In this document: positions 46,695 to 48,122 of the stretch, piece by piece
Layout: the number at the start of each line of letters is the position of its first letter
How positions within the stretch are numbered: position 1 is the stretch's first letter
Program-made: the position numbers and the translations under genes
Notes under the pieces: generated by a model
What the model was told of the DNA's origin: nothing
The model's input: the letters and a program-made list of their open reading frames with translations, nothing else
Databases searched by the model: none
Assembly (NCBI RefSeq): GCF_008704395.1
Contig: NZ_CP023695.1
Span: 3,100,001-3,164,000 of the forward strand
Source: Streptomyces alboniger
GTDB taxonomy: Bacteria > Actinomycetota > Actinomycetes > Streptomycetales > Streptomycetaceae
DNA length: 64,000 nucleotides
Direction: 5' to 3'

Positions 46695-46958
46695 TCACAC
46701 CGCTGCCTTCTTCAGTCGTCGGCGCTCACGCTCCGACAGGCCGCCCCAGATTCCGAAGCGTTCGTCATTGGCGAGCGCGTATTCGAGGCATTCGGAGCGG
46801 ACCTCACAGGCGAGGCAGACCTTCTTGGCCTCGCGCGTGGAGCCGCCCTTCTCGGGGAAGAAGGACTCGGGGTCGGTCTGGGCGCACAGCGCGCGCTCCT
46901 GCCAGCCGAGTTCCTCGTCCGCGTCCTCGACCAGCAGTTCCTGAACCAGCTCGGTCAT
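46695..46958 (-). CDS. whiB: WhiB, iron-sulfur transcription factor for sporulation
   Basis: An 87-residue Wbl protein whose sequence matches my memory of the S. coelicolor developmental regulator WhiB nearly residue for residue. Four cysteines (25, 48, 51, 57) bind the [4Fe-4S] cluster (ALCAQTDPESFFPEKGGS, KKVCLACEVRSEC). GIWGG lies at 69-73 and the basic tail RERRRLKKAAV follows. With WhiA it controls aerial-hypha septation genes. ATG 46958 follows GAGGGG; an in-frame extension to 47060 has no support. The promoter is about 75-100 bp upstream. Confidence 0.96.
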   Translation of the reverse strand: MTELVQELLVEDADEELGWQERALCAQTDPESFFPEKGGSTREAKKVCLACEVRSECLEYALANDERFGIWGGLSERERRRLKKAAV

Positions 46959-47324
46959 CTGCGCCCCTCGTCTGTCTGTGCGTCCCCGTGGTGCTGCCGT
47001 TACCGGTTTCGGCTGAACGACACGAGTGAAATTACAAGTGCGCCGATCCGGGCCAGTCAAGCCGAGATCTGCTATTGGGCCCCTTATTCACTCTGCGGAA
47101 CCAAGGCTATGCGGAAAGTGTTCAAATCGGCATAAACCATGACACCCATCGGCGACCCGCCGGCACTCCCCTCCAGGAGGCTCCGGAAGGGGCCACACCG
47201 GGAAGGACGTCGATGTTTGAGTGCCGGTTGCTGCGCCATGTGTCCCGTGAACCCGGTGCACAAACCTTTCGCCTGCCCGAACAACCGGATGAGGTGAAAG
47301 CTATCCCACATTTCGGACATTGAG
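46959..47324. promoter_or_regulatory. whiB leader and promoter; whiB-cdo intergenic region
   Basis: A gene-free stretch between divergent genes. On the minus strand TTGACT (47055-47060) and TGTAAT (47031-47036), 18 bp apart, form a good whiB promoter, with a leader of roughly 70 nt. Candidate frames on either strand across 47075-47323 lack family resemblance or ribosome-binding sites and I leave them out. The plus-strand promoter for the Cys-rich leader begins at the right-hand edge. Confidence 0.6.
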
Positions 47325-47353
47325 TTGACAGTGAAGGTGTAAGCAGGTGTTCT
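47325..47353 (+). promoter_or_regulatory. Promoter of the Cys-rich leader / cysteine dioxygenase transcript
   Basis: A perfect -35 TTGACA (47325-47330) is followed after exactly 17 bp by TGTTCT (47348-47353), which keeps the first and last T of a -10 box. Transcription would start about six to eight bases later, at or next to the ATG at 47361. Confidence 0.55.
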
Positions 47354-47360
47354 GGTGGGC

Positions 47361-47453
47361 ATGCTCGCGAACCTGGCTCTTTCGATGACCCGCACCAGCG
47401 GGTCCATCGGTGCTGCCCACGCGCGCTGTTGCTGTTCCTGCTCCAGCTGTTGA
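47361..47453 (+). CDS. Cys-rich leader peptide (candidate cysteine-responsive uORF)
   Basis: Reading ATG 47361 to TGA 47453 gives 30 residues: MLANLALSMTRTSGSIGAAH, then ARCCCSCSSC at the end. Five of the last eight codons are Cys, a rare amino acid, right before the stop. The promoter spacing suggests a leaderless start, though GGTGG could be a weak ribosome-binding site. Stem GCTCCAGCTG (47440-47449) pairs with CAGCTG-tc-GAGC (47461-47472), placing the stop codon in the loop. It lies 153 bp upstream of cysteine dioxygenase on the same strand. Polycysteine leaderless uORFs that attenuate downstream genes are known in mycobacteria; here the regulated gene would consume cysteine. Confidence 0.7.
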   Translation: MLANLALSMTRTSGSIGAAHARCCCSCSSC

Positions 47454-47606
47454 GTCCATCCAGCTGTCGAGCCGCTTTCCCCGCGTCACGCTTCCCCGCA
47501 TCACGCATCGCCGCCTGACCCGTCTTTCTCCGCTTTCTCCGCGTTCCCGCGCTCCACCCATCCCTCGCGACACCCCAGCACTCTTACGTTGAGGAACCAC
47601 CGCACG
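47454..47606 (+). promoter_or_regulatory. C-rich untranslated leader between the uORF and cysteine dioxygenase
   Basis: This stretch is strongly C- and T-rich and poor in G, with short repeats (TTTCTCCGC twice, CGCATCACGCATCGCCGC). An unstructured C-over-G segment of this kind is what Rho needs for loading, so termination here could depend on ribosome behaviour on the uORF. That is inference. Confidence 0.45.
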
Positions 47607-48122
47607 ATGAACAGCGACAGCGACCTCCAGATCGCCGGCGACATCCTCGAAGTCCCGCACCTCCTCCAGCCCGCCCGCGAGCACCCCGCCACCGTGGCCG
47701 AGTTCGTCGGCCTCGCCCGCGCCATCGCCGCCGACCGCTCCCAGTGGGAGCACCTCGTCCAGTACGACACCACCAGCCGCTGGTACCACCGCCTGCGCAC
47801 CGGACCCGGCTACGAGGTCTGGCTGCTCTCCTGGGTGCCCGGGCAGGGCAGCGGACTGCACGACCACGGCCGCTCCTCCGGCGTGCTCACCCTCCTGGAG
47901 GGCGAGTTGACCGAACGCACCGAGCGGGGCACGCGGGCTCTCACTGCGGGCGCGCAGCGCGTCTTCGCGCCGGGGTACGTCCACGAGGTCGTCAACGACT
48001 CCCTCGAACCGGCCGTCAGCCTGCACGTCTACTACCCCGGCCTGACCGAGATGCCGATGCACGCCGCCCGGTGCGCGGCCACCGTCGCGGACGGCGTCGC
48101 GGAGGATGTCGTAACCGCCTGA
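47607..48122 (+). CDS. Cysteine dioxygenase type I
   Basis: A 171-residue cupin that oxidises L-cysteine with O2 to cysteine sulfinate, the first step of cysteine breakdown. Iron ligands are in GSGLHDHGRSSGVLTLLEG (the two His of HxH, near 86 and 88) and GYVHEVVND (His near 137). SLHVYYPGL is also typical. The start is ATG 47607 with a GAGGAA about 12 bases upstream; spacing is loose. The upstream Cys-rich uORF suggests translation-linked control by cysteine supply. It precedes fbiA with 34 bp between. Confidence 0.93.
   Translation: MNSDSDLQIAGDILEVPHLLQPAREHPATVAEFVGLARAIAADRSQWEHLVQYDTTSRWYHRLRTGPGYEVWLLSWVPGQGSGLHDHGRSSGVLTLLEGELTERTERGTRALTAGAQRVFAPGYVHEVVNDSLEPAVSLHVYYPGLTEMPMHAARCAATVADGVAEDVVTA

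Follow-up and report, generated by a model that had tools for sequence, protein, structure and literature searches.

In Streptomyces, the run of cysteine codons that closes a short open reading frame (uORF) upstream of the cysteine dioxygenase gene, cdo, is complementary to the first codons of cdo, and this complementarity is the new element of the leader described here. The window, a 64,000-nucleotide stretch of Streptomyces alboniger DNA, carries cdo on the forward strand at positions 47607–48122. Its product belongs to the CDO_I family (Pfam PF05995, E 2.2e-21; best E against cysteine dioxygenases of the PDB 6.1e-10), an NCBIfam search with the same product gave no match, and whiB adjoins the gene. 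The conservation of the uORF, its bias towards TGT codons, the covarying hairpins P1 and P2, the helix with the cdo start and the co-expression data together make it very likely that the leader is a genuine attenuator, and the uORF itself can be regarded with high confidence as a putative Cys-codon-sensing leader.

The polycysteine uORF and its conservation

The uORF (MLANLALSMTRTSGSIGAAHARCCCSCSSC, stop TGA) is unannotated and occupies positions 47361–47453 of the forward strand, with its ATG at 47361 and its stop codon at 47451–47453. Read directly from the sequence, it comprises 30 codons and ends in ARCCCSCSSC-stop, five of the final eight residues being cysteine; the features for which the first-pass annotation had singled out a Cys-rich ORF ahead of cysteine dioxygenase are all in place. 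Among the 599 ORFs of the window (ATG or GTG start, at least 15 codons, both strands), it is the only one with at least five cysteines in the final eight residues, and 60 Markov-resampled windows contained no such ORF. The observation is real and far from chance.

A cdo match at E ≤0.001 was found in 199 of 199 genomes (S. alboniger’s own and 198 congeners), a few of them only weak; the match at G080:C1:2695533-2696018 contains one in-frame TGA. Part of this set, 130 Streptomyces loci picked from the better-scoring cdo matches (30, 60 and 40 genomes), was fetched, and every locus has a counterpart of the uORF, namely a short reading frame whose end is rich in Cys (90/90 and 40/40, the rule in the 40-locus batch being at least three Cys within the final 12 residues). 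A Cys-rich uORF with at least three Cys in its final 12 residues is likewise present in 80/80 named Streptomyces records, a set that overlaps the 130 loci. An alignment across Streptomyces had been proposed in the first-pass annotation; in it, the Cys-codon end is kept, the leader beyond drifts and the hairpin at the stop codon covaries.

In other genera of the Streptomycetaceae, the uORF is present at 36 of 37 usable loci, the remaining one (L144) carrying a degraded uORF with two Cys. Forty such loci had been fetched, and three were set aside: L133 (cut to 78 nt), L152 (a second CDO, fetched on purpose) and L113, one of two CDO copies in its genome, which is without such a uORF and, if counted in, gives 36/38. 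Twenty more distant CDO loci, comprising 19 from other families of the class (drawn from 107 genomes outside Streptomyces with a CDO match) and L093, a second copy in a Streptomyces genome, gave no convincing uORF of the cdo-leader type. Some short ORFs were considered and not counted: the Cys-containing ORFs at L104 and L105 and the polyCys ORF at L108 overlap the CDO start as estimated, and the ORF at L107, with three Cys and a stop ~30 nt upstream of CDO, was not taken as a cdo leader.

A leaderless-type promoter

The predicted leader promoter spans positions 47325–47353 of the forward strand and consists of a −35 box, TTGACA (47325–47330), a 17-bp spacer and a −10-like hexamer, TGTTCT (47348–47353), beyond which the uORF ATG follows at 7 nt. 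This pair of hexamers, noted already in the first-pass annotation, is of the leaderless type, and its −35 box is conserved: TTGACA occurs at 129/130 Streptomyces loci and 35/36 loci of other genera, both exceptions reading TTGACT, and the end of the box lies 29–31 nt from the uORF ATG across both sets (130 and 36 loci), the Streptomyces distances being given as 30–31 nt. The Streptomyces loci have a fixed T at −8 and, in 99%, a C at −1, consistent with a transcript start at the A of the uORF ATG. A Shine-Dalgarno-like motif before this ATG (−16 to −4) was found at 0/130 Streptomyces loci and 1/36 loci of other genera. From the spacing of TTGACA and the absent Shine-Dalgarno motif we infer a leaderless start, the uORF being presumably translated from a transcript whose 5′ end coincides with its ATG. 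A scan for a stricter promoter consensus listed no promoter at the uORF, because the second position of its −10 hexamer must be A, and the hexamer here is TGTTCT.

About 25 nt 5′ of the −35 box, at 47285–47299, the element CCGGATGAGGTGAAA recurs in many Streptomyces loci, and a GGATCAGGTGAA-like sequence is its counterpart at a few loci of other genera; the element may be a regulator site or a piece of a divergent whiB promoter.

Hairpins P1 and P2

P1, with the sequence GACCCGC-ACCA-GCGGGTC, lies within the uORF at 47387–47404 (forward strand) and shows compensatory changes. Counted for this specified structure on 49 chosen sequences, 78.6% of cells pair, compared with 72.1 ± 0.7 in shuffles, and 34 cells carry a double change, compared with 11.4 (0/500 shuffles reach either value); the covariation score is 0.251, against 0.141 shuffled and at most 0.123 when the structure is slid. 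The numbers of pairs with a double change and of further pair types show no excess over shuffles (159 and 454 of 500), and RNAalifold, run without a specified structure, found no pair in the mixed 49-sequence alignment. By the sequence counts given above, P1 covaries.

P2 surrounds the uORF stop codon (47440–47472, forward strand). In the minimum-energy fold, positions 47440–47449 pair with 47461–47466 and 47469–47472, leaving a 2-nt bulge and placing the stop codon in the loop, which matches the 10-bp stem described in the first-pass annotation; a related hairpin covaries. That related hairpin belongs to a group of 83 loci (group A), 80 of which fitted the search pattern, the exceptions being L001, L004 and L010. 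In it, the first base of a Ser/Gly codon and its partner form A-U at 52 loci, G-C at 15, G-U at 1 and A-C at 4, these four classes making up the 72 rows in which A or G stands opposite T or C, and 8 further loci have other base combinations. The window’s P2 is a shifted version of the group A hairpin and lies outside this count. On the uORF side, at least seven changes were placed on the tree, with two independent pairs on supported branches, too few for testing. By folding energy, expressed as z scores against mononucleotide shuffles, the local stop region is barely more stable than its shuffles (mean −0.6 at 33 Streptomyces loci and −0.3 at 36 other loci); for the whole leader, the mean is −1.7 at 17 Streptomyces loci versus −0.4 at 18 others.

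Pairing of the Cys-codon run with the cdo start

The Shine-Dalgarno sequence of cdo, GAGGAA, is located at 47591–47596 of the forward strand, and a similar motif occurs in most relatives displayed. The Cys-codon run of the uORF (CGCUGUUGCUGUUC, 47424–47437, forward strand) and the start-proximal segment of cdo (GAACAGCGACAGCG, 47609–47622, forward strand) are complementary over 14 contiguous pairs, one of them G-U, and are paired in the minimum-energy fold. A helix of 10–16 contiguous pairs (G-U allowed), mostly beginning at the G of the cdo start codon, is present at 79 of the 90 Streptomyces loci measured. By our reading, the minimum-energy fold keeps it in 10 of 11 loci displayed, the helix of L085 being interrupted. 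At 16 chosen Streptomyces loci, the Cys run pairs with its own cdo start at a mean of −23.0 kcal/mol, compared with −11.4 kcal/mol for cdo starts of other genera. Base +14 of cdo (A or G) tends to go with the uORF base that faces it (uORF T with cdo A 17, C with A 2, T with G 27, C with G 60; 106 loci), with a Fisher probability of 3e-6 that ignores phylogeny and rests on six changes.

Controls qualify this picture. Mechanical selection in the window gave 82 start regions, and in free duplex energy 65 of them equal or surpass the window’s own cdo start in binding its Cys tail, this number ranging from 7 to 82 of 82 among 26 sampled loci; by this measure, the cdo start does not stand out from other starts. 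Synonymous shuffles at 127 loci were as strong as the natural helix in a fraction of 0.25 when the uORF was recoded, 0.34 when its own codons were permuted and 0.12 when cdo was recoded, a modest excess. Cys tails of other genera pair with Streptomyces cdo starts at a mean of −17.2 kcal/mol, so the complementarity is partly generic to Cys codons. In other genera, 33 loci were compared, and the helix of a uORF with its own cdo (−12.1 kcal/mol) is no better than swapped combinations (−13.4 and −11.3 kcal/mol); helices of 8–11 pairs at the Shine-Dalgarno sequence or start occur at L114, L115, L116, L129, L130 and L131. This null result and the controls indicate that start sequestration is not the common denominator of the Streptomycetaceae. 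For Streptomyces, sequestration of the start by the Cys run is moderately probable on modelled folds; other genera retain the uORF, and its coupling to cdo must differ in part. At L135, L136 and L142 (genus g14), an 8-nt complement of the Cys run is found in ACAGAGGC, ~36 nt beyond the uORF stop, which suggests a different coupling structure with pairing elsewhere than at cdo.

The effect of a ribosome on the fold was modelled by masking a 32-nt footprint at 44 loci. With no ribosome on the transcript, the cdo start has a mean accessibility of 0.37, which rises to 0.52 with a ribosome at the first Cys codon, 0.58 in mid-run and 0.51 at the stop; it exceeds the ribosome-free value at 33/44 loci for the first Cys codon and at 40/44 for the stop. 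The first Cys codon and the stop are not separated by this masking (the former is higher in 22/44). Any ribosome upon the Cys run would thus open the cdo start, and dwell time would set the sign of regulation.

In one Streptomyces clade (L072, L076, L078, L083, L085, L087 and L088), CDO has a low-complexity N-terminal extension, and ATGAAC at the likely true start is retained together with an upstream CACAGC...GACTGACATCCGTCGAGG block; the extension at L080 is similar and shorter.

The leader between the uORF and cdo

From the uORF to cdo runs an untranslated C-rich, G-poor leader, delimited by base composition at 47454–47590 of the forward strand. Over 47454–47591, it contains 48% C and 18% G. 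When both strands of the window are divided into 2556 overlapping 138-nt pieces, only 3, which may include the leader itself, have an equal or higher C/G ratio. Across the 130 Streptomyces loci, mean composition is 47% C and 23% G, which bears out the C-rich, G-poor leader of the first-pass annotation as extreme for the window and general among relatives. Involvement of Rho is possible on this composition. No intrinsic terminator (hairpin and U run) was found within 46900–47700, and no Rfam covariance model matched at E up to 1 within 47000–47900. Beyond P2, the alignments viewed show little sequence conservation, and between the uORF stop and the anchored position in cdo lie anything from 72 to 271 nt. 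The window has an open frame all the way from the uORF stop to cdo; UGA readthrough from the uORF into cdo was nevertheless rejected, since in many relatives the distance from stop to cdo is not divisible by three (for example 128, 140, 146 and 161 nt).

Other cysteine leaders in the genome

Short Cys-containing leader ORFs precede four other S. alboniger genes or operons, namely the presumed cysI (by its place beside cysH), cysA (a two-domain rhodanese taken as such) and cysM (a cysteine-synthase-like gene taken as such, with its upstream partner), and a second CDO. All four match the NCBIfam family NF042934 (putative leader peptide) above its cut-off. The cdo uORF and a relative (L017) gave no leader match (NF042933, NF042934, NF042936) at E up to 10, in a search whose filters drop most matches above about 0.1, and the cdo uORF is without the R-H-x-D-L-C-R-like core found in the other four.

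The second CDO homologue (L195, G000:C1 about 5943200, minus strand) stands beside a rhodanese gene, and its leader ORF, MTDTDVRLWRRVHMDLVRYAGCVCHPSY, has a GTG start, belongs to the NF042934 family and has TTGACC upstream. ORFs of the R-H-x-D-L-x-R type are also found at L093, L108 and L152, before CDO homologues other than the orthologue of the window’s gene; at L094, such an ORF seems to overlap the CDO start. With leader-like ORFs at these non-orthologous genes, cysteine dioxygenases seem to have been linked to Cys leaders more than once.

Proposed mechanism and sign of regulation

In the proposed mechanism, the transcript would start at the uORF ATG, as the promoter implies, and ribosomes would translate the uORF, whose run of mostly TGT Cys codons would make elongation depend upon charged tRNA-Cys. 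Once the ribosome has left the run, the run would pair with the first cdo codons beside P2 and hide the start, a step taken from the computed fold, with occlusion itself as the presumed consequence. When Cys-tRNA is scarce, the ribosome would dwell on the run, the pairing would not form and cdo would be translated. The gene would in this way share one regulon of Cys-codon leaders with the second CDO and with cysI, cysA and cysM. As a whole, this combination of a Cys-codon leader, start sequestration and expression at low Cys-tRNA is the explanation towards which the evidence leans, at moderate confidence.

The sign is the point of departure from the first-pass annotation, which expected charged Cys-tRNA to switch cdo on: the Cys run faces the cdo start, for which the simplest mechanics is expression at low Cys-tRNA, and the presumed S. 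coelicolor orthologue rises with biosynthesis genes. That orthologue is SCO3035, taken as such because whiB is SCO3034 (PMC4255298) and adjoins cdo in the window. In wild-type S. coelicolor treated with H2O2, SCO3035 is raised 6.54-fold and SCO5772, termed a putative cysteine dioxygenase (PMC3087709), 8.0-fold, alongside cysI/H/D/N, cysA and cysM (PMC4991794). In Streptomyces strain KK, expression of both cdo genes stays low until 48 h and has risen by 96 h, cysD/NC/C/H are down at 24–48 h and up at 96 h, and cysM does not follow the cdo time course (PMC12763843). In feather medium, a Cys-rich substrate, cdo1 is 50-fold up (PMC7181669), a rise compatible with either sign; the cdo genes of KK and SCUT-3 are not assigned as orthologues of the window’s cdo. 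Expression of cdo when Cys-tRNA is low, the reverse of the earlier sign, is accordingly held to be somewhat the likelier model. Of the first-pass reading, the Cys uORF, the leaderless-type promoter, the covarying hairpin and the C-rich leader stand, and the sign is not supported. For the developmental link suggested there, the one feature noted is that whiB is the neighbour of cdo.

In the opposite scheme, that of the first-pass annotation, high cysteine would switch cdo on, a ribosome that has completed the uORF or dwells at its stop, as in E. coli tnaC, masking the stop hairpin or a Rho-loading site, and starvation would lead to Rho termination within the C-rich leader. It draws on the leader composition, extreme for the window and shared by the 130 loci, on the lack of a detected intrinsic terminator, on the stop codon lying within P2, on P1 being retained in other genera, where the start helix is not, and on the feather-medium response (PMC7181669). 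Against it, the leader past P2 is little conserved and variable in length, it would be untranslated under both states, and co-expression with cysteine-biosynthesis genes favours the other sign (PMC4991794, PMC12763843); the scheme thus appears unlikely.

Alternatively, the uORF could be translated and cdo be set mainly by transcription factors such as SenR, with the leader tuning basal output. The H2O2 response is credited to HbpS-SenS-SenR, SenR binds some of the regulated genes, NdgR binding is cited at cys genes and SCO3035 is merely one table row (PMC4991794); the mRNA rise of the sulfur genes may be transcriptional rather than leader-driven. Family-wide Cys codons and covarying RNA pairs are hard to explain without a regulatory role, and this alternative is judged quite improbable.

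Codon usage bears on whether the peptide itself could be the functional product. Across the 130 Streptomyces uORFs, TGT and TGC stand at 529:165, compared with 0:10 in five genes of the window, and the stop is TGA in all 130 (TGA 24 and TAG 12 among 36 loci of other genera). In one Cys codon, the first base is a U lying opposite a G of cdo, and a quick tree places at least 15 switches between T and C (Cys/Arg) there; for three further Cys codons, the first base changed 3, 6 and 2 times. These counts, which also speak for the helix with the cdo start, cover the 125 loci that could be clearly anchored; the rule for anchoring in itself constrains two of the compared codons, and a fourth uORF position, often not Cys, was excluded. 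A Cys-rich metal- or redox-binding small protein, which the conserved Cys-rich C terminus might suggest in place of a leader, is very improbable indeed given that Cys positions shift, one Cys codon repeatedly exchanges with Arg, TGT is strongly preferred and the RNA pairs covary.

Under the favoured mechanism of cdo expression at low Cys-tRNA, a cysteine-destroying enzyme would be made when cysteine is low, which is physiologically unexpected. One tentative and rather doubtful account is that the Streptomycetaceae keep cdo in the Cys-starvation response: stalled ribosomes would switch on cdo together with sulfate assimilation, and sulfite, made at the expense of a little cysteine and then exported, would cleave extracellular disulfides (cystine, keratin) for a net gain of cysteine. 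The cdo leader offers a direct test of whether a catabolic gene tracks surplus or starvation. Should cdo prove to be induced by starvation, what CDO does in Streptomyces (sulfite-driven disulfide cleavage, oxidative stress) needs rethinking, and a response to tRNA-Cys may account for part of the H2O2 induction of sulfur genes that is now credited to HbpS-SenS-SenR.

Comparison with known systems

Polycysteine leaderless uORFs acting as attenuators in mycobacteria were reportedly described by Canestrari et al. (2020). The mycobacterial ones are leaderless, as is predicted for the cdo uORF, and like it they are conserved, have a Cys run near the stop and precede a sulfur gene (PMC9094748, PMC13236596, PMC4633059, PMC9031893). 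In the translation attenuation set out in PMC13236596, the uORF pairs with downstream sequence and a stalled ribosome would break the pairing. The cdo leader differs from the mycobacterial type in that it targets a cysteine-degrading gene, its Cys codons lie opposite the opening codons of the gene that follows and it is accompanied by two covarying hairpins. It also stands apart from the NCBIfam models of Cys leader peptides, matching neither the Cys-rich NF042933 and NF042936 (Ms5788A, Ms4527A) nor NF042934.

The Cys leaders predicted by Seliverstov et al. (2005) resemble the cdo leader in their Cys-codon runs near the stop, pyrimidine-rich spacer and lack of an obvious terminator, and possible Rho-dependent attenuation was predicted for them (PMC1262725). 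Those predictions cover cbs in B. longum and, in Mycobacterium and P. acnes, cys operons; the portion of PMC1262725 consulted names neither Streptomyces cys leaders nor cysteine dioxygenase. Among the matches listed from the open-access literature, a scope that leaves most subscription papers outside, none reports a Cys uORF for Streptomyces cysteine dioxygenase.

In trp-type attenuators, an intrinsic terminator is used, unlike the cdo leader, which is without one in 46900–47700. The E. coli tnaC-tnaAB operon is similar in having a leader peptide before an amino-acid-degrading gene and a Rho-prone spacer. TnaC senses free tryptophan through nascent-chain arrest at its stop codon, and the cdo leader differs in showing no sign of such arrest. 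If true, the proposed mechanism would place an amino-acid-degrading gene under attenuation with the sign usual for biosynthesis, and cysteine sensing by ribosomes would reach beyond sulfur acquisition in mycobacteria to a gene for cysteine breakdown throughout an antibiotic-producing family.
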